A stretch of DNA of 51,624 bases from Planosporangium thailandense (lineage in GTDB: Bacteria; Actinomycetota; Actinomycetes; Mycobacteriales; Micromonosporaceae), in NCBI RefSeq assembly GCF_011947195.1, contig NZ_JAATVY010000037.1, positions 1 to 51,624 on the forward strand, in the 5' to 3' direction. How positions within the stretch are numbered: the first letter of the stretch is position 1; each line of letters opens with the position of its first letter. The notes below the pieces were generated by a model that was not told the origin of the DNA, searched no databases, and saw only the letters and a list, made by a program, of their open reading frames with translations. Positions 11,870-29,736 of this stretch are shown piece after piece. Made by a program: the position numbers and the translations under genes.

Positions 11870-13789
11870 TCAGGGGACCAGTGCCGGGGCGTCCTTGCTC
11901 TCGGCCAGCATCCCGACGCCGTCGCTCCCGTCCGGCTCGTCGGGCCCCTCGGGCCCGTCCGGACCGCCCGGCCCGTCGTCCCCGGTGGACTCCGCCGGAC
12001 GCCGCCGGCGCGCGTACCACACGGCCAAGACGATCAGCCCCGCGACCGCCGCGACGCCGGCGAGGACCGTCGCCGCCGGCTTGACGGGCGCCGAGGACAC
12101 GACCGCCTTCGAACCGGTACCCGCGCCCGCCACGCCCCAGTCGTGGACGTCGGTGACCGGGGCCAGCCCGTTGCGCAGCACCGTCACCGTAACCTTCCAC
12201 CCACCCGGCGAGCGGATGTCGTCGGTGGTCACGGTCCACGACCCGTCCGCGGCCCGGGTGACCGGGTGGACCGTCTGGACGCCGTCGGGCGACCGCAGGA
12301 ACACCGAGACGCCGCTGATCGGCGCGAGCGCCGGCCGGCGGGTGTCCGCGACCGTGATCCTGATGACGTTGCGTCCGGGCAGGTTCGGGCGGACCTCGAC
12401 GGTGTCGACCAGGTCGGCCGACTGGCCGCTCACCTGCGGCGCGATCTTCACCGCGGCGGTCGACTCGAAGCGTGGGCCGCGGGCCGGTCCGGCCGACGCG
12501 AGCCCGCCTGCCAGCCCGAGCGCGACGACCAGCGCGGTCGCCTCGGTGAGCAGACCGCGTACCGGCACGGCGCCGCCGTCACCGCGCAGCCGGCGCGCCG
12601 TACGCAGACCCAGCAGCCCGGCCACCGCCAGCGCGACGGTTTTGGCGATCAGCATCCACCCGTACGGCGTGGTGAGCAGCGCGTCCACCGTCGCCACCTG
12701 GGTGCCGGTCAGCAGCAGCCCGGTGATGGTCAGCGACACCACCGCGCCGACGGCGAGCGCCGCGAACGCCCGCAGCAGCGCCGCGACCTGCGCTGACCGC
12801 GAGTCACCGGATCTGAGCACCGGCACCAGCGCGAGCGCCGCCGCGACAACGCTGCCCGCCCACGCTCCGGCGGCGAGCACGTGCACCGCCGTCGCGGCGA
12901 GCATCACCCCGGTGGTCCGGTGGCCCAGCATCGCGGTGCCGACGGCCGCGGCCAGCGCCCCCGCTCCCCCGACCACCAGCATCCCGGTCGACCCGGCCGC
13001 TTCGGGCTCCGCGGACCGCAGCGCGGCACGGGCCCGCAGCACCACCGCCGTCAACGCGAGCAGGCCGACCTCACGAGCGAGCCACCGGCCGCTGAACGCC
13101 TCGCGCAGCAGCAGGCTGCCGGCGCCGCCGGTGCCGGCGTACACCTGGGCCACCAACTGGACCGGTGTGCTGACCAGGGCCAGCGCACCGCCGCTCGCCG
13201 CCACGTCGAGCAGCCGCCGGCGCACGTCGGGCAGGCGGCGGGCCAGCAGTAGCGCCAGGGCCGCCCCGCCGAACAGCACGGACAGGCCCAGCAGGCCGAG
13301 GTCGCGCAGGGTGGTCTCGAGCGGCGCGGGCCCGGCGGGCCGGGGTGCCCGCGCGGCCGCCGGCACCGACCGCTGCACGCCGATGACCAGGTTTCCGCTG
13401 GTGGTGTGCAGGTCGTCGCTGGACAGCGTGCTCCACAGGATGTGGTACACGTTGGCCGGCAGCTTCGGCAGGCCGACGACGACGTCCGCGGGCGTCTCGG
13501 TGCCGCTGGCCACGGCCGCGCCGTCGGTCGCCGCCTTGGCGAGCGTGATGGAGGTCGGCGTGTAGTGCCGGCCGTCGCCGTCGACGATGTCGACGCGGGT
13601 CGCCGACAGTTCGACGTGCTCGGTGAAGCTGAGCGTGAGCGACTCCGGCGCGCGGTCGAGCATCGCCCCGTCACCGGGTGTGCTGCGGGCCAGGTACGCG
13701 TGTGCGCTGGCCGCCGTGGGCGCCATCGTCAGTGGCAGAAGCGCACCGGCGATGACGGCCACGAGCCAGCCGTAGAGAAGCCGTCGCAT
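11870..13789 (-). CDS. CopC-CopD (YcnJ-like) copper protein with C-terminal cytoplasm-anchored extension
   Basis: About 640 residues. The signal peptide ends AASA, so the mature protein begins HAYL, as in CopC where the new N-terminal His binds Cu(II). The CopC domain (about 30-125) includes PESLTLSFTEHVEL and SSDDLHTTSGNLVIGV. About eight transmembrane helices follow (about 160-415), matching CopD. An extracytoplasmic beta domain (about 430-575) follows, then a last helix and an acidic Gly/Pro/Asp tail. It probably binds and imports copper, which fits its place as last gene of the oxidase operon. The start may be GTG 13795, overlapping the previous TGA (GTGA), or ATG 13789, used here. Confidence 0.9.
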   Translation of the reverse strand: MRRLLYGWLVAVIAGALLPLTMAPTAASAHAYLARSTPGDGAMLDRAPESLTLSFTEHVELSATRVDIVDGDGRHYTPTSITLAKAATDGAAVASGTETPADVVVGLPKLPANVYHILWSTLSSDDLHTTSGNLVIGVQRSVPAAARAPRPAGPAPLETTLRDLGLLGLSVLFGGAALALLLARRLPDVRRRLLDVAASGGALALVSTPVQLVAQVYAGTGGAGSLLLREAFSGRWLAREVGLLALTAVVLRARAALRSAEPEAAGSTGMLVVGGAGALAAAVGTAMLGHRTTGVMLAATAVHVLAAGAWAGSVVAAALALVPVLRSGDSRSAQVAALLRAFAALAVGAVVSLTITGLLLTGTQVATVDALLTTPYGWMLIAKTVALAVAGLLGLRTARRLRGDGGAVPVRGLLTEATALVVALGLAGGLASAGPARGPRFESTAAVKIAPQVSGQSADLVDTVEVRPNLPGRNVIRITVADTRRPALAPISGVSVFLRSPDGVQTVHPVTRAADGSWTVTTDDIRSPGGWKVTVTVLRNGLAPVTDVHDWGVAGAGTGSKAVVSSAPVKPAATVLAGVAAVAGLIVLAVWYARRRRPAESTGDDGPGGPDGPEGPDEPDGSDGVGMLAESKDAPALVP

Positions 13790-13791
13790 GG

Positions 13792-14265
13792 TCACCGCAC
13801 CGGCACGTGCGCCAGCTTGCCCGACCCGGTCGAAATCTCGATCTTGTCGCCACGCTTGATCGCGTTGTGGTTGTTCTCGTACAGGATGAAGTACGTCTGG
13901 CCCGGGCGCAGCTCATGGCCCTGCCGCATCAGCGCGGTCCGCCAGGCGGTCTTGCCGCTCTTCTCGTTCTTGAGCAACGGCGGGTGCTGGACGTCGCTCT
14001 GGAACGCCGACGCGCGCTGGTTGTCGAGCACGGTGTAGCGGATCTCGACGAGGCCGCCGTCGCCGACGAGGGCCGCCTGGGTGATGCGCACCCCCAGCTT
14101 GCTCTCGATCTTGCCGTCCTGCGGCACCGCGTAGTTGCTCTTGGCGTCGGCGCTGCCGGCGAAGCGCCACCCGACCGCGGCGATGAAGCCGAGGGCGAGC
14201 AACACGATCATGATCCGGCCAGCCTGTCGCCGGATCACCGTGGACCAGTGGGTCACGTGGGTCAT
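13792..14265 (-). CDS. Small membrane-anchored exported protein of the oxidase operon
   Basis: 157 residues. One N-terminal transmembrane helix (about 18-35) is followed by a beta-rich extracytoplasmic domain of about 110 residues. Recurrent segments include VRITQAALVGDGGLVEIRYTVLD, DVQHPPLL and QGHELRPGQTYFILYENNHN. I do not recognise a named family. Several exposed His and one Met could bind metal, but no known copper motif is visible. It lies between MCO1 and the CopCD gene, and its stop is coupled to CopCD. A strong hairpin upstream may set its expression apart from the oxidases. A copper-delivery or assembly role is possible and is inference. Confidence 0.8.
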   Translation of the reverse strand: MTHVTHWSTVIRRQAGRIMIVLLALGFIAAVGWRFAGSADAKSNYAVPQDGKIESKLGVRITQAALVGDGGLVEIRYTVLDNQRASAFQSDVQHPPLLKNEKSGKTAWRTALMRQGHELRPGQTYFILYENNHNAIKRGDKIEISTGSGKLAHVPVR

Positions 14266-17457: not shown

Positions 17458-18762
17458 TCACTGGGTCGGGCAGCCGTTGAGCGGATCGATGCGGATGAGC
17501 GTCATCATTCCGCCGAAGCTCGCGCCGAAGTTGGTCGACTGCTGCAGCGCGTGGCTGTGCGCCACGTGGTAGTACTCACCGCACTGGTTGTTCTGGACCA
17601 CGCCCGCGGGTAGCTGGCTGTTGGTCTGACCCAGGTACGGGTCCTCGCTGAACCACGTCTCGGTGCCGGGACCGACGATCTGGTCCTGCAGCTGTGGCAG
17701 CTTGATGTCGCTCGGAATCGGGTTGGTCTTGGGGTCGTACTCCTGCTTCCAGGTCATCAGCGTGTCGATGGTCTGCCCGGGCGCCGGGTCGATGAGGAAG
17801 TTCGAGTACGACAGGTCCTCGCCGCCCGGCCCCTGCGCCGGGTGCCCGTCACGCGCGATGAGCTGCTCGTCGCTACCGTGCGGGTGGAACGGGTAGCTCG
17901 TCGTACCGGCGTTGAGGTACCGGATGAGCGCCGGCTTGGGGTTCTTGGCGGCGTCGTACGGCTGGATGTGGATCAGCGCGCCGTACGGCTGGCTCGGCAG
18001 CCACGCCGCGTGGTTGGGCGCGATGGTGTCCGGCATGCTGCGGCCGTTGATCATGAAGTACCGCGGCGTGTAGTTGTTCCAGTTGAAGGCCCGCTTACGC
18101 TCCACCGCCAGGTGGGCGTCCGGGTCGACCTCGCTCAGCAGGAACAGGTACTCGTGCTCCGGGCTGAACGCCGACGAGGAGTTGTTGTTGTCCCAGTCCG
18201 CGTGGCCCTTCGGCCGTACCACCAGCGCGCCGTACAGCCCCATCTGCTGCTGCTTCTGCACGTCCGTACCGGACTGGTACAGGTACGTGCCCGGGTTCCC
18301 GGCGGTGAAGGTGTAGGTCACCGTGCCGCTGTTCGCGCCGGCCGACGTGGTCATCGACGTGAGGGTGCCGTTGGCGTCGGTCTCCGGCTGGGCCGGCTTG
18401 CCGTTGGCGTACACGTTGTTCTGCCCGGGGAACATGATCGAGGTCGGCTCGGGCAGCGCGTTGCGCAGCGCCACCGTCACGTGCGCACCGGACTCGACGC
18501 ACAGCGTCGGCCCGGGAAGCTGGAACGACCCGCCGGTGTCGCCGTAGCTCCACATGTAGATCGCGTTGCCGTCCGGAGTGGAGGCATAGCCGCCGCTCGC
18601 CGTGAGCGAGAAGCTGTTGCTCGACGAGGTCTCGCACTCCATGCCGTCGACCGGCCCGGCCGCCGAGCTCTGCGGCCCCGGCACGACCATCACCCCGACG
18701 GTCGCCGCGATGAGCGCGACCGGGGCCACGAGCCGCAGCCGCTTGCGGTTGAGAGATGGCAT
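17458..18762 (-). CDS. MCO2: secreted multicopper-oxidase-like protein keeping only C-terminal trinuclear-type ligands
   Basis: 434 residues with signal peptide (about 1-35). There are two cupredoxin-like domains. The first has lost its ligands (PEPTSIMFPGQ instead of HxHG; LYQSGTDVQKQQQMG instead of HSH). The second keeps FHPHGSDEQ (His293, His295) and YYHVAHSHALQQ (His402, His404). The HSH lacks the Cys of a type 1 site, so this domain can offer only trinuclear-cluster ligands. Taken alone it cannot be a complete oxidase. The start chosen is ATG 18762 with GGGGA upstream, two bases after the MCO3 stop; ATG 18777 would overlap MCO3. It is co-transcribed with MCO1 and MCO3. Confidence 0.9.
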   Translation of the reverse strand: MPSLNRKRLRLVAPVALIAATVGVMVVPGPQSSAAGPVDGMECETSSSNSFSLTASGGYASTPDGNAIYMWSYGDTGGSFQLPGPTLCVESGAHVTVALRNALPEPTSIMFPGQNNVYANGKPAQPETDANGTLTSMTTSAGANSGTVTYTFTAGNPGTYLYQSGTDVQKQQQMGLYGALVVRPKGHADWDNNNSSSAFSPEHEYLFLLSEVDPDAHLAVERKRAFNWNNYTPRYFMINGRSMPDTIAPNHAAWLPSQPYGALIHIQPYDAAKNPKPALIRYLNAGTTSYPFHPHGSDEQLIARDGHPAQGPGGEDLSYSNFLIDPAPGQTIDTLMTWKQEYDPKTNPIPSDIKLPQLQDQIVGPGTETWFSEDPYLGQTNSQLPAGVVQNNQCGEYYHVAHSHALQQSTNFGASFGGMMTLIRIDPLNGCPTQ

Positions 18763-18764
18763 CG

Positions 18765-20081
18765 TCACAGTCCCCATCCGTTCGGAACGTCCTGCGGCTT
18801 CAGGGGGTAATCCGCCGGGTACACCCGGATCTCGGTCATCTGCCCGCCGCTGCCACGGCCGCTGTTGTTGTTGAGCGAGACGTAGTCACGGTCGTAGAGC
18901 AGGAAGCTGGTGTAGGGGGTCTGCTGGCTCTGCGCCGTGACGTCCGGTGCGGTGAAGATGACGTCGCGGCTCTCGCCCGGGCCGACCTCCACCGTGTTCG
19001 TGACCTGGTAGTTGCTGACGCTGCCCTGACGCAGCAGGCCGGCGTCCTTGGCGACCACCGTGAGGTCGATCCCGTCGACGGTGACCGCGTGGTTGCGGTA
19101 GCCCAGGTTGGCCAGCCGCAGCAGGACCGTCTCGCCGCTCTTGCAGACGACCAGCGACGAGATCGGCTGGTGCTGCAGCCACGGGTTGGCCGCCGGGACC
19201 ATCGGGTCGCCGTTCGGCTCGAGGGTGTCCGGGTACGCGCGGCCGTTGAGCGCGTAGAACGACGGGTCGTAGTCGGTCCAGTCGCTGGTCTGGATGTGCG
19301 CGTCGCGGTAGTGCCCCTCGGCCCAGATCTCGGTCATCATGAACGCGAACTCGCGGTCATAGCCGGTCGACCCGTCACCGCAGTTGTAGGCGAACCTCGT
19401 GAAGGTCTTGCCGTTGAAGGCTATCGGGGTGCCGTTCTGCTTCGGACGCACGAACAGCATGCCGGTCATGCCCATCTGCACGTGCTCGACGTCCTCGTAG
19501 TGACAGTGGTACATGTACGTGCCCGGGTCGTGGGGCCGGTAGAAGTAGGTGAAGTCCCGCCCGATCGGCACCGACATGGACAGCTCCGGCACGCCGTCGA
19601 ACAGCGGGATCGCGTTCTGGAAGCCGTGCCAGTGGATCGTGTGGCCGTCGGTGAGGTCGGGCCGCTGCGACAGCCCCAGGTTCGTCAGCGTGACCCTGAC
19701 GTCGGTGTCCTGGTCGAAGTACAGCATCGGCGCGGAGATCTGCGCCTGGCCGCGCTGGGCGGTGATCTGGGCCGGTGTCATGCCGGTCACGTCCCGGAAC
19801 CCGAAGATGTACAGGTTGGTGTTCGCCGGCGCGAGCGGGTCGGGCCAGAAGGTCGGGACCGGCGGCGCGGCCTTCGGCATCGACGCCCAGCCGTCGGTGC
19901 CCGCGAGGTGGACCGCGGTCCTGGCGGGTGGTGGCGCGGCGGCGGGCACCGCCAGTCCTCGGGGCCGCGCGGGCGAACCGACGGAGCTGCCGGCGGGCAG
20001 CATCGCCCAGCCGGCCGCACCGGCAAGGCCGGCCAGGATGGCCCGGCGGCTCAGACCGCGTGGGGTTGCACGGTCGGACAA
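18765..20081 (-). CDS. MCO3: Tat-exported multicopper oxidase subunit with type 1 site and half trinuclear site
   Basis: 438 residues. A twin-arginine signal (GLSRRAILAGLAGAAG, about 9-24) suggests export folded, perhaps with copper loaded. Domain 1 has HTIHWHGFQN (His147, 150, 152) and YHCHYEDVEHVQMGM (His192, Cys193, His194, His200, Met203/205), which give a full type 1 site plus four trinuclear ligands. Domain 2 has lost its set (LGYRNHAVTVDG; no HCH or HSH near the C-terminus). The missing four ligands are present in MCO2. The start is TTG 20081, preceded by AAGGAGG at good spacing; a longer open frame from 20120 lacks this. It is first of the three oxidase genes. Confidence 0.92.
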   Translation of the reverse strand: MSDRATPRGLSRRAILAGLAGAAGWAMLPAGSSVGSPARPRGLAVPAAAPPPARTAVHLAGTDGWASMPKAAPPVPTFWPDPLAPANTNLYIFGFRDVTGMTPAQITAQRGQAQISAPMLYFDQDTDVRVTLTNLGLSQRPDLTDGHTIHWHGFQNAIPLFDGVPELSMSVPIGRDFTYFYRPHDPGTYMYHCHYEDVEHVQMGMTGMLFVRPKQNGTPIAFNGKTFTRFAYNCGDGSTGYDREFAFMMTEIWAEGHYRDAHIQTSDWTDYDPSFYALNGRAYPDTLEPNGDPMVPAANPWLQHQPISSLVVCKSGETVLLRLANLGYRNHAVTVDGIDLTVVAKDAGLLRQGSVSNYQVTNTVEVGPGESRDVIFTAPDVTAQSQQTPYTSFLLYDRDYVSLNNNSGRGSGGQMTEIRVYPADYPLKPQDVPNGWGL

Positions 20082-20217: not shown

Positions 20218-23200
20218 CTATCTCTCGTCAGCCCCGATGTCGGGTTTCGTGGCGTTGCGGCCGTCACCGTCGATGTCGAAGCCGGGTGCGCTCACCTTCG
20301 TCGAGCCGACCGTGACCGAACCGGTGCCGATGTTGTTGGCCGGGCTGGTGGCCTGCAGGTGGTAGTCGCCCATCTGGGTGCCCGCCACCTGCTGGATCAC
20401 GATCACGGCCTGCCGGAACGCCGGGTACGACCGGGAGGGGTCGACCGTGACGCTGGTGAGGAACTGCTTGACCACCTTCGGGTCGACCCCGACCTTGTTG
20501 CTCGGGTCCGACTTGGTGCCGGTGGTCGTCTGCAGCACCGAGTAGGTCGGCGCAAGCGGCCCGACGCCGTCGAAGGAGCCCATGTCCCAGTACCTGATCG
20601 GGTCCCCGGCCGGCGCGTCCTTGGCTCCGATGCCGCTGATGTAGAGCCCGTTCCAGCTACCCGCTCGGTTGTTCCAGAAGATGTTGTTGAACAACGTGGG
20701 GTTGCTGAAGTTGGGCGCGTTAGCCGGCAGGGTCGCCTGCAACTGGACGCTGTTCTCGGCGACGGACAGACCGGCCGGCGCCGGCTGGCCGTTGCTCGTG
20801 GTCGCGGTCGCGGTGGTGATGTTGTCCATCACCGTGTTGTTGATGATCTGGACGTTGGTGGCGTCGTCGAGGGCCAGCCCGCCACCCTCGTGGGTGGAGA
20901 TGTTGCCCGCGATGATGTTGTTGGTGATCTTGATCGGGAAGTTGTTCACCTGCAGCAGCCGGATGCCGCCACCGTCGTCGTTGGACAGGTTCGCCTGGAC
21001 GTAGTTGGCGTCGATCGTCACCGCCCCGGAGCCCGGCGAGAGCCGGTTCGGGTCCGGCGGCAGCTCACCGGCGATCATGATGCCGCCGGCCTCGTCGTAG
21101 GACTGGTTGAGGTACACCCGGTTGTTGGTGATCCTGCCGTCCGGCGACAGGCCGTAGTGCGAGATGGCACCGCCGTACTCGGCCGAGAAGTTGCCGCACA
21201 GGGAGTTGTGGTCGACCGAGTAGCCGTTGCTACCGGTGAAGAGCCCGATACCGCCGGCGAGGTTGGTGCCGCCGTTGTCGCGGATCTGGTTGCGCGAGAT
21301 CTTCACGTGGTCGTTGCGGGCGTTGGTGTACGGGGTGCCGACACGGATCGCGCCGCCGTACGAGCCGCTGTTGCCGGCGATCACGTTGTCGGTGACCTGG
21401 GTGTAGCTGGCCGAGGCGTGCAGGTACACGCCACCGCCCTGCGTCACGACCGCCCCGTCGGCCCCGTACGGCGTCTTGATGCCGCCGGTGACCTCGTTGA
21501 TGTTGTTCGGGAAGTCGGACTGGTTACCACCCGTGATCTTGAATCCGTTGATCGTCGGCGCGTTGGCCGCGGTGAACTGGCCGTTACGTGCGAGCACCGT
21601 CACCACCGCGCCGTCCGGCACCTCCGTCGGCCCGGCGTACTGCAGCGAGGCCACCAGGGACATCCACGCCGCGCCGTTGTCGTTGTCGATGGCGAAGTCG
21701 CGACCGTCCAGGATCGAGCCCGGCACCAGCGTGCTGCCGTACTGGCCACCGGGGCCGACACCCTGCAGGCGCACGGAGGAGTGGATGACCACGTTCTCCA
21801 GGTACGCGCCGAACGGGTTGTTGGCGTTCGCGTTGTTCGGCCACACCGCCACGACGACGGTGTCCCTACCGCCGTTCGAAGCCGCCGCCGCGTCGAGCGC
21901 CGACTGCACCGTGGTGTAGTTCTTCTCCTTCGGCCGCAGCGCCGTTGTCGGCGCGTTCACCTGCAGGAGCTTCGGGTCGGCCGTCGTGCCGGTGCCCTTG
22001 TCGAGGAACTGGAACGACAGGCCGTTCACCGTCTGCTTGCCGGCCGCCGTGGTGATCGACAGCGTCGCCACGGTCGGCTGCGCCGGTTTGGGCAGCGTCA
22101 CGACGATCTGCCGGTCGGTCCAGCTCTTGATGGTGACCCCGGGAAGGTTCCCCTGTGGACCGGCCACCTTGACCGTGCCGCGGCTGAGACCGAAGCCGGT
22201 GCCCTTGATGGTGATGTCGCGGTTGGCGTCACTGGCCCACAGGTACGGCTTGGACACCGAGAACAGCTGCGGGACGTCACGCGCCAGGTCACAGTCGACC
22301 GGTCCGATCTGCGTGCTGCCCGGAGCCAGCGACGTCATCGCCACCTGGGTCGGCGCCGTGTCGGTCACGGTGAACAGACCCGGCCACGCCTGGAAGTTGG
22401 TGCCGATGGTGCGGTACCGCTGGTTGTAGTTCTTGTTCAGATGACCGGGTTGGCCCGGATCGTTACCGACGAACCGGTACATGTTCGGACACGGCCCTGC
22501 GGGCACCGGGCAGTTGTACGTGCTCGTCGAGGGCTCGATCGCCTCGTAGAAACCGTTGGGGTCGGTGTCCACGGTGTCCACGAGCCGGCCGCTGTAGTCG
22601 TAGATGCCCATCGGAACGTTCGGCAGCCCCTCGGCCTCGCCGTACTCGATGCTGCGCTTGTCGTGCGAGATGCCCAGGTCGTTGATGGTCAGGCCCCAGA
22701 AGTGCGTGGGCAGCGGGACCTCGGTGAACAGGTTGAAGTTGGGCGCGGCCGTCTGACCGGCCCGGACGGTCACCACCTTGGCGTCGCACAGCGGCTTCTT
22801 CTGGCCCTCGTACGGGCTGCCACCAGCGGCGAGGAACGCCGGGTCGGTGACGTGCACGGTGTGCTCGGCGCCGGCGCACTCGGAGGTGATGCCGGTGCCA
22901 CCCGACGGGTTGGTCCCGGGGTCCGGGGTCGGCGCCGGCGGGTCCGGCTGGTCGGCGGCCTGGTCGGGCGTCGGCGGGAAGTTCTCCTGCGGCAGGTACC
23001 CGTCACCGTCGAAGACGTTGACGTCCTCCTCCTTGGTGACCTCGTACATCTTGCCGCCACCGACCGGGTTGTCCGGGATCTCGACCGAGACGATGTAGTC
23101 GTCCGGTACCAGCTGCTGCGTCTGCCCGTCGGGCAGCGGCGCGTACAGCGGCAGGTCGTGGTTGCCGGCCGGGCCCTTCGGGTCACCCGGGTTCTTCGGG

Positions 23201-25383
23201 TCGCCCGGCGGGTACAGGTTGAGCGTCGAGTCGGTGAACGCGTAGTTGCCGTTCACGGTCTGCCCGAAATTCTTCGGGTCGTTCTCGCTGGGCGCGAACT
23301 GCACGCCCATCATCGGCGCCTCGACGCAGGCCTGGTCGGCGGCGGTCCCGAACGCGGGCAGCGCCTGCTGGTCGGTCAGCGGGGCGCCGTTCCACATCCG
23401 GGCGGTGCAGCCGCGGCCGGCCTCCCACTTCTCGGCCGGGTACGCCTCGTTGAGCTCGAGCGCGGGGTCCCGCACCAGTTCGCCCGTGTTCGGGTCCTTC
23501 ACCGGGTCGCCGTTGGCGTCCCGCTTCACCGCGTACAGGTGCACCTTCACGTCGGGGATACCCGGCTGGTACGCCTCGGTGACGGCGTTGGCGGCGTCGA
23601 GCTCGTTACGGGTGGTGTCGTAGGTGACGGTGCCGGCGATGCCGCCGTTCTCGTCGCCGGCGTAGGGCTTGACGCCCCAGTCGACCCGTCCACCCAGACC
23701 GATGATCGGCAGGAAGTTGAGGTCGACGGCGGCCCCCATCAGCGTCGTGGGGGTCGGCTCGTTGTCGGCCTGGTACGTGATGCCGGTCGTCTGGTAGCGG
23801 GTGTTGAACGCCTCCAGCACCAGCCACTTGCTCAGCGGATACGCCTCTTTGATGTCGTAGTACCCGTTGTTGTCGGTCGTGACCGAGTTGGTGTACTGGT
23901 CCATCAACGAGTTGTCGCGCTCCTTGACCGACAGCGGGAAGCGCGGCACGCCGACCTCGCCCGGGTCGCGCTTGCCGTTGCCGTTGGCGTCGATGAAGAC
24001 GTAGCCGCGGACGTTGGTGAACCAGCCCACGAGCATCTTGGGGCCGACGTCGACCTTCTGCCCGTTGCGCACGGTCACGTTGAAGCTCCACAGGATCAGC
24101 TCCTGCGGCTGGTCCCAGATCGTCAACTGGTAGTCGCCGTCCGGCACGTTCTTGATGTCGAAGGTGCCGTCGGCGCCGCCCCGGCCCATGTAGATCATCT
24201 GGTCGCCGTTGCCGAGCGCGCTCAGCGCGATCCACGGTTCCTTGATGGGGCCGTCGATCTTGGCGCCGGCCATGCCGGTCTCGGGCACCGTCGCGCCGCC
24301 CTGGCCGCCGATGTACGGGCGACCGACGACGGCCGTACCGGTGATCTCACCCTTGATCCTGGAGTTGACCGGCAGGGTCTTGGGCTGGACGAAGCCGAAG
24401 TCCACGTAGGGCACCTTCTCGGCGCCCAGCGTCTGCTCGGTGTCGTAACCGGTGTCGCCCTCCTGGACCCAGATGTCCCAGTCGTAGCTGCCCTCGAGCG
24501 TCGTCGTCTGCGCCCACACCTGACCGGTCGGGGCCACCACCGAGGCGGCGTACCGGTCGGGTCCGAGGTTGGGGATGACGATGTCGCCGTTGGCGTCGCT
24601 GACGCACTTGCCGACCGAACTGGCGGCGATCACCGGCTTGCCGTCGGTGAAGACGATCGGGGACTTCGGGTCCTTCGGGTCCTTGTGGACGTACTCGGTG
24701 CACAGCGGGTTGCCGTAGTAGTCGACGCTGACCTGGCCGAGCACGTCGGTCAGGTAGCCGCGGAAGCCCGCCAGCCCCTTCTCCGCGCCCACCTCGTACG
24801 TGCCGTCGACCGGGTTGGTGTCGTTGAACACCCGCAGCCGGATGGTGCCCAGCGGCAGCGGGTACGGCTGCATGCCGACGGTGACCCGACTGGTCTGCCC
24901 GCTGGCGACCGTGAAGTGCGACCCGTCGATCTTGTACCCGTCGGCGGTCACCGAGATGAGGTACCGGCCGGCCGACAGGCCGTCCAGCTTGACCGTCTCG
25001 TTGAGCTTCTTCTCATCGCCCTGGGCCACGATCGGCACGGCCCCGGACGTGGCCCGTACGGACGGCCACTGGCACTTGTCCGCGAAGTTCGCGGGGCTGT
25101 TCACTCCGGCGCTGGACGGCAGACAGTTCTGCGCCGAGTCATGGGGGTTGCCCACGTCGTCAGAGGTGATCAACCACTTGTACGTGGCGACCTTGTCGCC
25201 TTTGTGAATTCCATCCTTCGGTCCGACGTCCCGCGCGCTTTCCACCCGCAGCGTGATGCTGCCCGGGCCGGTAGCCGCGGCGGTGGCCGCTTGGGGCAGC
25301 GCAGTCACCACGGCGAAGCCGGCCAGCGGTACCAGGCCGGATAGCGCAACGGTCAACCATCGCCGGGAGAGGCGACGCAACAT
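20218..25383 (-). CDS. Giant secreted SdrD-like / IPT-TIG / parallel beta-helix protein
   Basis: 1721 residues. The signal peptide (about 1-36) is followed by several carboxypeptidase-regulatory/Cna-B-like beta domains (about 40-450). An SdrD-B-type module is at about 458-560 (VFIDANGNGKRDPGEVGVP). More such domains and an Asp/Pro linker run to about 1030. An IPT/TIG domain is at about 1040-1127 (DITIKGTGFGLSRGTVKV). A right-handed parallel beta-helix covers about 1150-1690, with repeated Asn-rich turns (ITNNIIAGN, IINNTVMDN). The end, DGDGRNATKPDIGADE, is the usual terminal signature of such helices. There is no LPXTG or membrane anchor. As first gene of the oxidase operon it may be a surface scaffold or substrate-binding partner. 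The start is ATG 25383 with GAGGGGG upstream. Confidence 0.9.
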   Translation of the reverse strand: MLRRLSRRWLTVALSGLVPLAGFAVVTALPQAATAAATGPGSITLRVESARDVGPKDGIHKGDKVATYKWLITSDDVGNPHDSAQNCLPSSAGVNSPANFADKCQWPSVRATSGAVPIVAQGDEKKLNETVKLDGLSAGRYLISVTADGYKIDGSHFTVASGQTSRVTVGMQPYPLPLGTIRLRVFNDTNPVDGTYEVGAEKGLAGFRGYLTDVLGQVSVDYYGNPLCTEYVHKDPKDPKSPIVFTDGKPVIAASSVGKCVSDANGDIVIPNLGPDRYAASVVAPTGQVWAQTTTLEGSYDWDIWVQEGDTGYDTEQTLGAEKVPYVDFGFVQPKTLPVNSRIKGEITGTAVVGRPYIGGQGGATVPETGMAGAKIDGPIKEPWIALSALGNGDQMIYMGRGGADGTFDIKNVPDGDYQLTIWDQPQELILWSFNVTVRNGQKVDVGPKMLVGWFTNVRGYVFIDANGNGKRDPGEVGVPRFPLSVKERDNSLMDQYTNSVTTDNNGYYDIKEAYPLSKWLVLEAFNTRYQTTGITYQADNEPTPTTLMGAAVDLNFLPIIGLGGRVDWGVKPYAGDENGGIAGTVTYDTTRNELDAANAVTEAYQPGIPDVKVHLYAVKRDANGDPVKDPNTGELVRDPALELNEAYPAEKWEAGRGCTARMWNGAPLTDQQALPAFGTAADQACVEAPMMGVQFAPSENDPKNFGQTVNGNYAFTDSTLNLYPPGDPKNPGDPKGPAGNHDLPLYAPLPDGQTQQLVPDDYIVSVEIPDNPVGGGKMYEVTKEEDVNVFDGDGYLPQENFPPTPDQAADQPDPPAPTPDPGTNPSGGTGITSECAGAEHTVHVTDPAFLAAGGSPYEGQKKPLCDAKVVTVRAGQTAAPNFNLFTEVPLPTHFWGLTINDLGISHDKRSIEYGEAEGLPNVPMGIYDYSGRLVDTVDTDPNGFYEAIEPSTSTYNCPVPAGPCPNMYRFVGNDPGQPGHLNKNYNQRYRTIGTNFQAWPGLFTVTDTAPTQVAMTSLAPGSTQIGPVDCDLARDVPQLFSVSKPYLWASDANRDITIKGTGFGLSRGTVKVAGPQGNLPGVTIKSWTDRQIVVTLPKPAQPTVATLSITTAAGKQTVNGLSFQFLDKGTGTTADPKLLQVNAPTTALRPKEKNYTTVQSALDAAAASNGGRDTVVVAVWPNNANANNPFGAYLENVVIHSSVRLQGVGPGGQYGSTLVPGSILDGRDFAIDNDNGAAWMSLVASLQYAGPTEVPDGAVVTVLARNGQFTAANAPTINGFKITGGNQSDFPNNINEVTGGIKTPYGADGAVVTQGGGVYLHASASYTQVTDNVIAGNSGSYGGAIRVGTPYTNARNDHVKISRNQIRDNGGTNLAGGIGLFTGSNGYSVDHNSLCGNFSAEYGGAISHYGLSPDGRITNNRVYLNQSYDEAGGIMIAGELPPDPNRLSPGSGAVTIDANYVQANLSNDDGGGIRLLQVNNFPIKITNNIIAGNISTHEGGGLALDDATNVQIINNTVMDNITTATATTSNGQPAPAGLSVAENSVQLQATLPANAPNFSNPTLFNNIFWNNRAGSWNGLYISGIGAKDAPAGDPIRYWDMGSFDGVGPLAPTYSVLQTTTGTKSDPSNKVGVDPKVVKQFLTSVTVDPSRSYPAFRQAVIVIQQVAGTQMGDYHLQATSPANNIGTGSVTVGSTKVSAPGFDIDGDGRNATKPDIGADER

Positions 25384-25773
25384 CCGGTAAACCCCCTCGG
25401 GTCTCCACTAGCCGGCCCGGGTGGGCAGGCATCAGGAAGGCATCCTTTGGGTTGGCTGGGAGGTTGCTGAGATTCATGACGGACTTGTCATGCGGCTGTC
25501 ATTGTCGATGTCATCCATCGGCTCATCCGCATGAGCTATGGTGTCGGGCCCCCGGGGGACCCGGCCCATCCGTTCGCGGGATGCGGGTCGGCTGACCGGT
25601 GATCGAAGACTCACCCTTGTCGTTGGATGTTTCGGGCAAACCACACCCTACGTACAGCGGCGGCCATCGACCCTGGCGGTCGATCCCACGCTCCGGATCC
25701 AATAGGGCATCGACACCGGTACGCGCCGGGCCTGTCATGTGCGGCCCGCGGAATCGCTTGGGGAGGCAGAGGC
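25384..25773. other. Divergent intergenic region between oxidase operon and two-component genes
   Basis: About 390 bases with no convincing gene. The region holds a cluster of TGTCAT/ATGACA motifs at 25475-25514 (listed separately). The rest shows nothing I can assign. It must hold both the operon promoter (leftward) and the regulator/kinase promoter (rightward). Confidence 0.7.
25475..25514. promoter_or_regulatory. Candidate response-regulator operator (site A)
   Basis: CATGAC-N6-GTCATG is a perfect inverted repeat at 25475-25492. TGTCAT is repeated at 25486, 25497 and 25509, offsets of 11 and 12 bases, the spacing usual for OmpR-family tandem sites. It lies 92 bases upstream of the giant-protein start. 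The identical inverted repeat occurs at 28375-28392. Binding by the regulator at 25774 is inference. Confidence 0.6.
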
Positions 25774-26442
25774 TTGAGCCGGGTGCTTGTCATCGAGGAC
25801 GACGACCGGATCGCCCGGCTTGTCTCCCGCGCGCTCCAGGACGACGGGCACGGTGTGGAACGGGCCGCGCGCGGCGGAGACGGGCTCAACGAGGCCCTCG
25901 CCGGAGATTTCGACCTCGTCGTGCTCGACCTCATGCTCCCCGACATGGCGGGCACCCAGGTGCTCGAGCGCCTGGTCGAGGTTCGACCCGAGCAGCGGGT
26001 GCTCGTCCTGTCGGCGGTCCCCGAGATCGGCACCCGGGTCGCCGTGCTGGAATCGGGCGCGGCCGACTTCCTCGGCAAGCCGTTCGCCGTCGCCGAACTG
26101 CTCGCACGGGTACGGGCGCGGCTGCGGGTACCCGCACCGGGCGCGGCCACCCGGTGGCTGCGCGCCGGACCGGTCCTGCTCGACCTGAGACTGCGCCGGG
26201 CCGAAGTGGACGGCAGGCACGTCGAACTGACATTCCGCGAGTTCCTGCTCCTGCAGCACGTCATGCGGCGCGCCGGCCAGGCCTGCAGCCGCGGCGAGCT
26301 GCTCTCCGACGTGTGGGGCCTCACCTTCGACCCGGGAAGCAACGTCGTCGACGTCTGTGTGCGCCGGCTACGCCAGAAGCTGGACCGGCCGGACCGGATC
26401 GAGACCGTACGCAATGTGGGCTACCGCTTCACCGTCGACTAA
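25774..26442 (+). CDS. OmpR-family response regulator beside the oxidase operon
   Basis: 222 residues. The receiver has VLVIEDDDRIAR, phospho-acceptor Asp in LVVLDLMLPDMAG (about residue 52), and Lys in ADFLGKPFAVAELLARV. The winged helix has ELTFREFLLLQHVMRRAGQACSRGELLSDVW and VVDVCVRRLRQKLD with NVGYRF at the end. The start is TTG 25774, preceded by GGGGAGG at 7-base spacing. It is divergent from the giant-protein/oxidase operon and sits between two copies of CATGAC-N6-GTCATG. It overlaps the kinase gene, with which it forms a pair. It most likely controls the copper-oxidase operon; this is inferred from position and sites. Confidence 0.95.
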   Translation: MSRVLVIEDDDRIARLVSRALQDDGHGVERAARGGDGLNEALAGDFDLVVLDLMLPDMAGTQVLERLVEVRPEQRVLVLSAVPEIGTRVAVLESGAADFLGKPFAVAELLARVRARLRVPAPGAATRWLRAGPVLLDLRLRRAEVDGRHVELTFREFLLLQHVMRRAGQACSRGELLSDVWGLTFDPGSNVVDVCVRRLRQKLDRPDRIETVRNVGYRFTVD

Positions 26443-27505
26443 CCGGCTGCTGGTCGGCGGCTGGGTGGCCGCCGCGGCCGGGTGGTCGGCGCTCATGTAC
26501 CTGCTGCCCGGGCAGGAGACGATCCCGTTCCACTTCATCTGGATCGGCCTGGCGCTCGTCTACGGCTTCACCCGCTGGAAGGCGAGCGGCATGATCACCG
26601 CGCTGGTCGCGGTCACGGCGGTCACCGGCTACATCCTGTGCCACCACGCGGCGGATCGCCAGATCGGCTGGGAGGAGACCGCCGAGGTGCCGCTGATGGC
26701 GAGCATCTTCGGGGTCATGGTGTGGCACGTCAACCGGCGCAACGTCGCCGTCGCCGAGGTGAAGCGGCTGGCGGAGGCGGAGCGGCGGCGCCTGGAGGTG
26801 CAGCAGCTGTTCGTCCGGCTCGCCTCGCACGAGCTGCGCACCCCGATCACCGTCGCCCGTGGCTACACCGAACTGGTGCGCGCCGCCCACAACGACGCGG
26901 ACGTCCTCGAGGACACCGACGTGGTCCTCGACGAGCTGGACAAGCTGGCCCGGATCACGCAGCGACTGGTCACCCTCATGCAGATGGAGGAGCCCTATCC
27001 GCTGCGCGCGTGCGACCTGGACCTGGAGCTGCTCCGGATCGCCCGGCGCTGGGAGCCCACCGCGAACCGGATCTGGTACGTGCGCTCCGACATCGGCACC
27101 GGCGTGGTGAACTCCGAGCGGCTGGAGGCCGCCCTGGACTGCCTGGTCGAGAACGCGGTCAAGTTCACCGCACCCGGCGACCGGATCGAGCTGATCGGCC
27201 GCGCGGACGCGGCGGGATGGCAGATCCAGGTGATCGACACCGGCGCTGGCATGACACCCGAAACGGCGGCCGCGCTGGACACCTGGACTCCCCGGGGACG
27301 CACCGCCACCGGCACCGGACTGGGTCTGGCGATCGTCCGCTCGGTCGTACAGGCGCTCGGCGGCGAGGTCCGCGTCGACACCGAGCTCGGCCGGGGCACC
27401 ACCGTCACGCTGTCGGTCCCGGCCGGCGGCAGCAGCCCGTCGGCGCCCGCCGGCCCGCCCGCCACGGCAAACCCGACCTCGTCGGCCACGGTCGTGGTGC
27501 AGTAG
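26414..27505 (+). CDS. Sensor histidine kinase beside the oxidase operon
   Basis: 363 residues. Three short membrane helices at the N-terminus (about 10-95) leave almost no extracytoplasmic loop, so the signal is probably sensed within or near the membrane. Conserved His and Cys near the helices (GYILCHHAADRQIGW) could bind metal. The phospho-acceptor box is LASHELRTPITVARGY. The N box is ENAVKF, G1 is DTGAGM, and G2 is GTGLGLAIVRSVVQALGG. A Ser/Pro tail ends the protein. The start chosen is ATG 26414, inside the end of the regulator gene (29-base overlap). Its partner is the regulator at 25774. Confidence 0.92.
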   Translation: MWATASPSTNRLLVGGWVAAAAGWSALMYLLPGQETIPFHFIWIGLALVYGFTRWKASGMITALVAVTAVTGYILCHHAADRQIGWEETAEVPLMASIFGVMVWHVNRRNVAVAEVKRLAEAERRRLEVQQLFVRLASHELRTPITVARGYTELVRAAHNDADVLEDTDVVLDELDKLARITQRLVTLMQMEEPYPLRACDLDLELLRIARRWEPTANRIWYVRSDIGTGVVNSERLEAALDCLVENAVKFTAPGDRIELIGRADAAGWQIQVIDTGAGMTPETAAALDTWTPRGRTATGTGLGLAIVRSVVQALGGEVRVDTELGRGTTVTLSVPAGGSSPSAPAGPPATANPTSSATVVVQ

Positions 27506-28374: not shown

Positions 28375-28392
28375 CATGACTGAAGTGTCATG
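28375..28392. promoter_or_regulatory. Candidate response-regulator operator (site B)
   Basis: CATGAC-N6-GTCATG is a perfect inverted repeat identical in both arms to site A at 25475-25492. It is placed 41 bases upstream of the ATG at 28334 (leftward). It also lies 121 bases upstream of egtA, so an effect on egtA cannot be excluded. Confidence 0.6.
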
Positions 28393-28512
28393 ACTGCACC
28401 CCTTGCACATACGGGCAGCCGAACCACCCGGATTCGGGCCAGATCCGCTGTGCTTGTCGGCGCGCCGTGGGTAGCGTCGCACAAAGAACGATCCACGGCG
28501 GCCGGGGAGCCT

Positions 28513-29736
28513 ATGGCGGACCTTGCGAAGCGGCGCGATACCGAGGCCGGCATCCTGCACGAGGTGTGCGAGGCCGAGGGCTACATCGCCTCGATCTGCT
28601 TCAAGACCGGACCTCCCGCGCTCGTCGGCGTCGAACTCGAATGGACAGTCCATGACAGGCACGCGCCGGGCGCTCCGCTCGACCCGGCCCTGCTGCGCCG
28701 GGCGCTCGGCCCCCACGCGCCGCCCACCCTGGCCCCCGACGGTCCGCACCAGCCGCTGCCCGGTGGCGGGCTCGTCACGCTGGAGCCGGGTGGCCAGGTA
28801 GAGATCTCGTCGGCGCCCGCGGCCGCGCTCACCGCGCTGCGCCACGCCGTCGACGGCGACAGAGACCGGCTCGCCCGGCTCCTGGCAGCCGTTGACCTGC
28901 ACCTTGGCGATTCCGGCATCGACCCGCACCGACGCCCGTGCCGCCTGATCGACACCCCCCGGTACGCGGCGATGCAGCGGGCCTTCGACGCCCACGGACC
29001 GCACGGCCACACCATGATGTGCAGTACGGCCGGCCTGCAGATCTGTGTGGACGCGGGCGAGCCGCACCGGATCGCCGACCGGTGGGCCGCCATCCACGCA
29101 CTCGGCCCGGTCCTGCTCGCGACGTTCGCGACCGCCCGCCGGCACGCCGGCCGCGACAGCGGTTGGGCGTCGGCCCGGATGGCGGCCTGGCTGGGCATGG
29201 ATCACCGCCGCACAGGCCCGGTCGGGACCGCGGGCGACCCGGGGCTCGCCTGGGCCCGGTACGCCCTCACCGCTCCCCTGCTGTGCGTGCGCCGCCCCGG
29301 CGGTTGCTGGGATGCTCCGCCGGGGGTCACCTTCGCCGACTGGATCGCGGGCGCGCTCACCCCGCCCCCGACCACCGACGATCTCGCCTACCACCTGAGC
29401 ACCCTGTTTCCGCCGGTACGCCCGCGCGGATACCTGGAGCTGCGGTTCCTGGACGCCCAGCCCGGCGGCGAATGGTTCGCGCCGGTCGCGGTCGTGACCG
29501 CGCTGCTCGGCGACGACACCGATCTCGACGCCGCGCGGGCCGTCTGCGAGCCGATGGAGGGCCGCTGGCGGGACGCGGCCCGGCTGGGCCTGACCGACCC
29601 CGCACTCGCGCGCGCCGCGACGGGGCTGCTCGAGGTCGCGGCGCGGGCGCTCGGACGGACGGGGCTGCCGTCAGCCGAGCGGGACGCGGTGATCGGCGTG
29701 GTCGAACGACGTCTCAACGGAAAGGCGGGACCGTGA
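28513..29736 (+). CDS. egtA: Glutamate-cysteine ligase EgtA
   Basis: 407 residues. It makes gamma-glutamylcysteine, the sulfur donor for EgtB in ergothioneine synthesis. The GCS2-type ligase pattern includes VGVELEWTVHD near residue 40, PGGQVEISSAPAAAL (about 92-107), HTMMCSTAGLQICVDAG, and YLELRFLDAQPGGEWF near the C-terminus. The start chosen is ATG 28513, with GGGGAG upstream; the ATG at 28390 would overlap the inverted repeat at 28375-28392 and add an atypical leader. It is the first gene of egtABCD and ends in a GTGA overlap with egtB. Confidence 0.95.
   Translation: MADLAKRRDTEAGILHEVCEAEGYIASICFKTGPPALVGVELEWTVHDRHAPGAPLDPALLRRALGPHAPPTLAPDGPHQPLPGGGLVTLEPGGQVEISSAPAAALTALRHAVDGDRDRLARLLAAVDLHLGDSGIDPHRRPCRLIDTPRYAAMQRAFDAHGPHGHTMMCSTAGLQICVDAGEPHRIADRWAAIHALGPVLLATFATARRHAGRDSGWASARMAAWLGMDHRRTGPVGTAGDPGLAWARYALTAPLLCVRRPGGCWDAPPGVTFADWIAGALTPPPTTDDLAYHLSTLFPPVRPRGYLELRFLDAQPGGEWFAPVAVVTALLGDDTDLDAARAVCEPMEGRWRDAARLGLTDPALARAATGLLEVAARALGRTGLPSAERDAVIGVVERRLNGKAGP

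Follow-up and report, generated by a model that had tools for sequence, protein, structure and literature searches.

Copper ligands of one multicopper oxidase divided between adjacent two-domain proteins in Actinomycetota and Burkholderiales, and a predicted heterotrimeric ring

The window analysed here, a stretch of 51,624 nucleotides from Planosporangium thailandense (contig NZ_JAATVY010000037.1), carries six genes on the minus strand, which encode, in this order, a giant protein, the multicopper oxidase-like proteins MCO3, MCO2, and MCO1, a small protein, and a CopC-CopD fusion (Table 1). MCO3 starts with TTG at position 20081, with AAGGAGG in front of it, and overlaps MCO2 by 13 nucleotides, while MCO2 and MCO1 overlap by 4 nucleotides. 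A first-pass annotation, made by a model from the letters alone, had placed the MCO3-MCO2 pair between this TTG and the end of MCO2 at 17458, which is exact, and had proposed that the two proteins carry complementary halves of one active site. All three MCO chains comprise two cupredoxin domains: Pfam finds both in MCO3 (Cu-oxidase_3 and Cu-oxidase) and domain 1 only in the MCO2 and MCO1 of the window, whose second domains are recognized via alignments with relatives. An NCBIfam search with MCO1, MCO2, and MCO3 gave no match reaching the cut-off of any family.

Table 1 Genes and copper-binding motifs of the locus, with positions in the window and residue numbers of the encoded proteins (T1, type 1 copper site; trinuclear, trinuclear copper site; Ig, immunoglobulin)
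Feature	Position	Strand	Remarks
Giant secreted protein, 1721 residues	20218..25383	-	Matches to SdrD_B, CarboxypepD_reg-like, TIG, beta-helix; first gene of the conserved set
MCO3, 438 residues, two cupredoxin domains	18765..20081	-	T1 and half of the trinuclear site in domain 1
MCO2, 439 residues, two cupredoxin domains	17458..18777	-	Other trinuclear half in domain 2, no T1 Cys
MCO1, 1042 residues	14333..17461	-	Two ligand-free cupredoxin domains (residues ~94-388), then Ig-like repeats
Small conserved protein, 157 residues	13792..14265	-	Hydrophobic N-terminal stretch; kept in the set
CopC-CopD fusion	11870..13795	-	Pfam CopC 2.8e-14, CopD 3.3e-09
Response regulator	25627..26442	+	Pfam; upstream of the set and divergent from it
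Histidine kinase	26357..27505	+	Pfam HisKA, HATPase_c; adjoins the response regulator
HTIHWHG, MCO3 domain 1	19623..19643, residues 147-153	-	H147 T1; H150, H152 trinuclear, by motif
HCHYEDVEHVQMGM, MCO3 domain 1	19467..19508, residues 192-205	-	H192, H194 trinuclear; C193, H200, M205 T1, by motif
HPH (H298, H300), MCO2 domain 2	17878..17886	-	Aligns with HSH of 2zwn domain 2 (weak local score)
HSH (H407, H409), MCO2 domain 2	17551..17559	-	Aligns with HDH of 2zwn domain 2 (weak local score)

The His-any-His (HxH) motifs that mark the trinuclear site are divided between MCO3 and MCO2. MCO3 has two of them, both in domain 1, where HTIHWHG aligns to domain 1 of 3g5w and 2zwn and residues 191-205 read YHCHYEDVEHVQMGM; its domain 2 is without any ligand. 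MCO2 also has two, both in domain 2, within FHPHG (residues 297-301) and HVAHSHA (residues 404-410), and its domain 1 is ligand-free. The cupredoxin part of MCO1 (residues 1-420) contains no HxH motif. We follow the standard motif reading and take H147, C193, H200, and M205 to be the T1 ligands and the pairs HWH, HCH, HPH, and HSH to be the eight trinuclear His, the T1 ligands being confined to an N-terminal domain, that of MCO3. Added together, MCO3 domain 1 and MCO2 domain 2 offer the same ligands as a single two-domain multicopper oxidase of type C; the first-pass annotation had likewise read them as exactly one T1 and one trinuclear site. With this full set present across two chains, oxidase function is predicted.

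Using profiles, we mapped 34 homologous loci in Actinomycetota and Burkholderiales, a count that excludes the window. The Burkholderiales scope consisted of eight plasmid-collection records, of which L029 and L030 were mapped by profile and L117 was read from its annotation. In MCO3, H147, H150, H152, C193, H194, H200, and M205 are kept in 32 of 32 rows, and the full ligand set, like M203, in 31. In MCO2, H298 and H300 are present in 32 of the 32 rows covering them, and H407 and H409 in all 31 covering rows. H404 varies, with F, M, or Q in several homologues, so that MCO2 domain 2 supplies exactly four conserved motif His (H298, H300, H407, H409). The retained His of both proteins are conserved across two phyla, and the count of four His that the annotation gave for MCO2 domain 2 stands, H404 of its HVAHSHA motif not being one of them. 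One further residue of MCO3, H257 (window 19311-19313), lies outside the copper motifs and is invariant in 32 of 32 rows, with H262 nearby in 27 of 32; H257 may be a substrate or structural site.

The losses recur as well. No HxH motif was found in MCO2 domain 1 in any of 34 rows (fragments included) or in MCO1 in any of 30, and MCO3 domain 2 has one in a single row of 32 (a C-terminal HVH in L027). Extra HxH motifs within the expected domain occur in MCO3 domain 1 of L100 and L101 and in MCO2 domain 2 of L027, L029, and L030. None of the MCO3, MCO2, or MCO1 rows has all four motifs in one chain, while each of nine ordinary two-domain oxidases used as controls does (L111, L113, L114, L115, L116, L122, L123, L124, L125; the three-domain L112 was left out), L113 and L125 having an extra stretch beside the two oxidase domains. 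L113, from Deinococcus, shows the type C pattern with HTIHLHG and HCHVETNLHLDMGM in domain 1 and HSMHLHG and HDH in domain 2, which unites the patterns of MCO3 domain 1 and MCO2 domain 2 in one chain. Neither MCO2 nor MCO3 is a complete oxidase by itself, and the same ligand losses and retentions are found, as a pair, in Actinomycetota and Burkholderiales at 33-35% identity. Compared domain by domain, conservation agrees with the proposed interface by half, being highest in MCO3 domain 1 but not raised in MCO2 domain 2; MCO1 is the least conserved of the three proteins.

The genes also occur together. Of 61 related genomes searched with the MCO3 of the window, 7, its own included, hold a relative. 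A contig scan gave only three close loci, two of which (L018, L019) are apparently identical with the contigs of L021 and L022 and entered the counts once. By profile, MCO3 was found in 3 of 246 genomes of a phylum sample (own genome included), MCO2 in the same three with equal copy numbers, and MCO1, at an expectation value (E) of at most 1e-50, again in these three; the MCO3 profile also matched 13 of 298 genomes in the order and 8 of 394 in the class, where the source genome is again among the matches. MCO2 is present in 24 of 25 genomes with MCO3, the exception (G029) having MCO3 at a contig end. The two genes lie together on one strand in 30 of the 34 loci, and in the remaining four (L028, L107, L108, L109) the contig breaks off on the side where the partner would lie; these apart, neither gene was found alone at the mapped loci. 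Two sequence-based grounds for refutation given by the annotation, a lone MCO2 or MCO3 and a lack of conservation in the retained His, were thus checked and did not apply. Four more genomes of the phylum sample, which the MCO1 profile matched with E between 1e-21 and 3e-34, were rejected as split systems because their proteins carry all four motifs and are ordinary two-domain oxidases.

A separate MCO1 accompanies MCO3 and MCO2 in 26 of 34 loci and lies behind MCO2 at all mapped loci not cut there by a contig end, except two fusion loci described below; in L096 and L100, which lack MCO1, the contig ends inside MCO2. All six genes are present in 22 of 34 loci, 19 of them in the order of the window; in the other three (L025, L026, L027), CopC-CopD is placed divergently, upstream of the giant gene. 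A related response regulator (at least 200 bits) was found in 11 of 34 loci, several loci being too short to show one. No fusion of MCO1, MCO2, and MCO3 into one chain was seen among the 34 loci. One genome of ~4.2 Mb (G052) has three diverged copies of the whole set (L024, L025, L026); the MCO1 frame of L025 (L025:11961-13304) is 448 residues long, with little beyond the two cupredoxin domains, and the MCO2 frame of the same locus is stretched to 699 residues. At L101:4069-5084, MCO2 is present in two overlapping frames with its middle missing, adjoined by MCO3 and MCO1 frames, from either an assembly error or decay.

In a plasmid collection of 72,556 records, the same eight records rank first for MCO3 and MCO2, two of them from Cupriavidus metallidurans and six from Paraburkholderia. 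In total, 420 records match MCO3 and 278 match MCO2, the weaker matches including ordinary oxidases; the six records examined below the top eight (L111 to L116) are five two-domain oxidases with all four motifs and the three-domain L112. The gene order in L029 and L030 is MCO3, MCO2, a protein of 2708 or 2744 residues, and a small protein. The large protein is a fusion of an N-terminal MCO1-like module with a giant-protein part behind it; its N-terminus matches the MCO1 profile with E 1e-28 and 6e-32 (95 and 106 bits) versus 77 and 81 bits with the MCO2 profile, and the module of the C. metallidurans record matches exactly the eight records named above. The ligand-free third protein that the annotation had proposed is kept in both phyla, in Actinomycetota as a separate MCO1, in Burkholderiales as an MCO1-like module within the fusion. 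The set of Paraburkholderia largidicola, from stinkbug midgut crypts (L117:12242-24146), has four genes annotated as hypothetical protein.

Among known structures, the MCO3 profile best matches 3g5w (8e-24) and 2zwn (1e-23), domain 1 on domain 1, and the MCO2 profile best matches 2zwn (3.6e-13), mainly in domain 1. We take both structures to be type C; their T1 Cys is visible in domain 1 of the alignments. A maximum-likelihood tree of 41 rows resolves the MCO1, MCO2, and MCO3 groups at 100/98, 79/77, and 100/99, each on one side of a branch and each including Burkholderiales rows, with the fused MCO1-like module falling with MCO1. MCO1 and MCO2 cluster together, apart from MCO3 and the outgroup. 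The three proteins are of common descent, and on the simplest reading the triplication predates the split between the systems of the two phyla, and the genes have remained a set ever since, whether inherited vertically or transferred.

MCO3 of the window has a twin-arginine translocation (Tat) signal (SRRAIL). A loose RR pattern near the N-terminus, which also catches stray matches, is found in 29 of 31 MCO3 rows, 8 of 30 MCO2 rows, and 4 of 29 MCO1 rows; one of the 29 (L089) is off-pattern, and both Burkholderiales MCO3 rows are without RR. Since the Tat signal is present on MCO3 of Actinomycetota and mostly absent from MCO2 and MCO1, the two halves of the enzyme may be exported along separate routes and come together only once outside the cell.

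Two-domain laccases form homotrimers whose active site lies where two monomers meet (PMC3192119, PMC13151041); types A, B, and C are set by the position of T1, and the trinuclear site lies between domain 1 of one monomer and domain 2 of the next (PMC13151041). The MCO1-3 set resembles the type C oxidases 2zwn and 3g5w in having two cupredoxin domains per chain, T1 in the N-terminal domain, and four HxH motifs, here summed over MCO3 domain 1 and MCO2 domain 2, with the site expected between domains 1 and 2 of neighbours. It differs from them in that no chain has all four motifs, in having three genes instead of one, and in the proposed retention of one of three sites. The set very likely works like a type C oxidase, but because no single chain carries the four motifs it is not a type C member as defined.

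The six-domain oxidases ceruloplasmin and MnxG, like the set, have six cupredoxin domains and one trinuclear site of three possible. Unlike these enzymes, each a single chain (for MnxG, PMC3600357), the ring of MCO1-3 would be built from separate chains, the window encoding three of two domains each. In bacterial six-domain enzymes, moreover, T1 belongs to domain 2, and domains 2 and 3 enclose the trinuclear site (PMC3600357), a polarity opposite to that of MCO1-3. Of the analogues drawn on by the first-pass annotation, the two-domain oxidase with an intersubunit site comes closest, in its type C form; ceruloplasmin, like MnxG, is a less close model, T1 there lying across the interface. The Mnx complex (MnxE3F3G) is also a multi-subunit multicopper oxidase, but in it a six-domain MnxG is joined by MnxE and MnxF, small subunits described as without known homologues (PMC5622069), whereas in MCO1-3 the oxidase core itself is divided. 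A literature search for heteromeric or split multicopper oxidases returned, among the matches listed, fungal heterodimeric laccases, two-domain laccase papers, and unrelated work, and no bacterial core like MCO1-3, subscription literature being mostly uncovered and the result no proof of novelty. POXA3-type fungal laccases, likewise described as heteromeric, differ from the set in that their large chain is a whole laccase and their small chain an accessory.

We consider it likely that MCO1, MCO2, and MCO3 are specialised paralogues of a two-domain oxidase that form an extracellular heterotrimeric ring with a single active site between MCO2 and MCO3. Because the halves are complementary and their division is kept across two phyla, the enzyme very probably works only as a mixed complex. 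Its origin would be a homotrimeric type C oxidase in which triplication was followed by complementary loss, leaving one of three active sites. The resulting ring of six cupredoxin domains outside the cell, presumably with 1:1:1 stoichiometry, would have the order MCO2-MCO3-MCO1; of the two cyclic orders, only this one would face MCO2 domain 2 to MCO3 domain 1, so that one of the three sites is complete and two are empty. Electrons from the substrate, for which a metal ion and a phenolic are both possible, would enter at the T1 copper of MCO3 and travel over the HCH bridge to the trinuclear cluster, held jointly by the two chains, where O2 would be reduced to water. We infer that MCO1, as the annotation had suggested, is part of the ring, which it would close and anchor to a scaffold, the giant secreted protein, while CopC-CopD would assist copper supply. 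We lean slightly towards a more complete hypothesis, an obligate A-B-C heterotrimer: a ceruloplasmin-like ring in which three chains supply the six cupredoxin domains, and which evolved independently, from a homotrimer of type C and not of type B, while two of the three sites were lost. It would form only once the T1 subunit (Tat-exported in Actinomycetota) has joined the other two chains outside the cell, and would be mounted via MCO1 on the giant secreted scaffold.

Several observations weigh against the heterotrimer. H192 of MCO3 is replaced by Leu in one row of 32 (L022, a metagenome-assembled genome of 86% completeness and 6% contamination). Domain 2 of MCO2 in the window is invisible to Pfam, yet matched in MCO2 of C. 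metallidurans, and its local segments score 10.5 and 0.2 bits against 2zwn, weak by itself, so that the correspondence between the two rests on order and motif and not on score. Nor is this domain better kept than the ligand-free domain 1 of the same protein (mean identity 0.548 versus 0.583). Structure predictions of MCO3 and MCO2, made as single chains from alignments of four close sequences (window, L018, L019, L020), gave mean predicted local distance difference test values of 34.0 and 31.5, respectively. In the tree, the MCO2 group reaches only 79/77, the outgroup branches are long, and the rooting is unsure. The fused module of Burkholderiales scores 99.8 in hhalign with both the MCO1 and the MCO2 profile, and CopC-CopD was sought and not found in L029, L030, and L097.

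MCO1 might also stand outside the ring and serve, say, as an adaptor bound to the giant protein, leaving a ring of MCO2 and MCO3, paired as above, in some ratio. The long Ig-like tail of MCO1 in the window and the fusion of its counterpart to a giant protein in two Burkholderiales loci would suit such an adaptor, and the conservation of MCO1, the lowest among the three, points the same way. Nevertheless, MCO1 keeps its place behind MCO2 wherever the contig is uncut, those two loci excepted, it comes from the same two-domain stock, and in L025 it is hardly longer than its cupredoxin domains, which is what a subunit of the ring should look like; two-domain oxidases, in addition, are trimeric (PMC3192119, PMC13151041). 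We regard this arrangement as unlikely, if the most serious of the alternatives.

Somewhat less probable still is that the set oxidizes Mn(II) as a divided form of the six-domain manganese oxidases of bacteria (MnxG/MofA type). The total of six domains with one site of three is consistent with this, as are the two-component system and the copper supply close by, the mnxG operon of Pseudomonas having an SCO protein and being regulated by a two-component system (PMC8218464). T1, however, lies in the N-terminal domain of the pair here and in the C-terminal one in the bacterial six-domain enzymes (PMC3600357), which sets the two apart by description, and nothing in this analysis links the set to manganese.

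It is improbable that the three proteins form separate homotrimers without a trinuclear site, in which MCO3 would transfer electrons through T1, MCO2 would bind copper, and MCO1 would be structural, with no oxidase among them. Cupredoxins that do nothing but transfer electrons are common, and the homotrimer is the rule in this family (PMC3192119, PMC13151041), but the four trinuclear His of MCO3 would be superfluous in a protein that only transfers electrons through T1, the four still missing from MCO3 are precisely those of MCO2, and the two genes are adjacent and co-occur. Finally, the idea that these are three degenerating copies, complementary by chance in a single genome, which the lack of most ligands in two of the three proteins and the disrupted MCO2 of L101 might suggest, is refuted by the recurrence of identical losses and retentions in two phyla at 33-35% identity, and we give it practically no weight.

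The giant protein and CopC-CopD would serve the heterotrimer as mount and copper supply. Among the 288 columns of the giant protein conserved at 90% (23 rows), there is one His and there are many Asp, Asn, and Gly, which fits the presumed role of a scaffold rather than a redox partner. A weak NCBIfam match of this protein to NosD (E 0.003) stays below the family cut-off. An antisense open frame of 1661 residues on the plus strand (window 20359-25344) covers the giant gene and is most likely an effect of the high guanine-plus-cytosine content. CopC-CopD presumably supplies copper. The 157-residue protein gave no match in a Pfam search; a Burkholderiales relative has a sub-threshold match to NfeD. 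Slightly past the two-component system lies EgtA, the glutamate-cysteine ligase of ergothioneine synthesis (window 28390-29736), and the only other Cu-oxidase_3 match of the same genome is at C13:172555-172887, inside an open frame of 693 residues.

If the heterotrimeric reading is right, the MCO1-3 set would be a living example of the passage from a symmetric trimer to an asymmetric ring with one site, a step supposed in the origin of ceruloplasmin. The chains would still be separate here, so that the step could be tested by mixing subunits. For Actinomycetota and Burkholderiales, the set would represent a new extracellular oxidase system, together with its scaffold and copper-supply genes.

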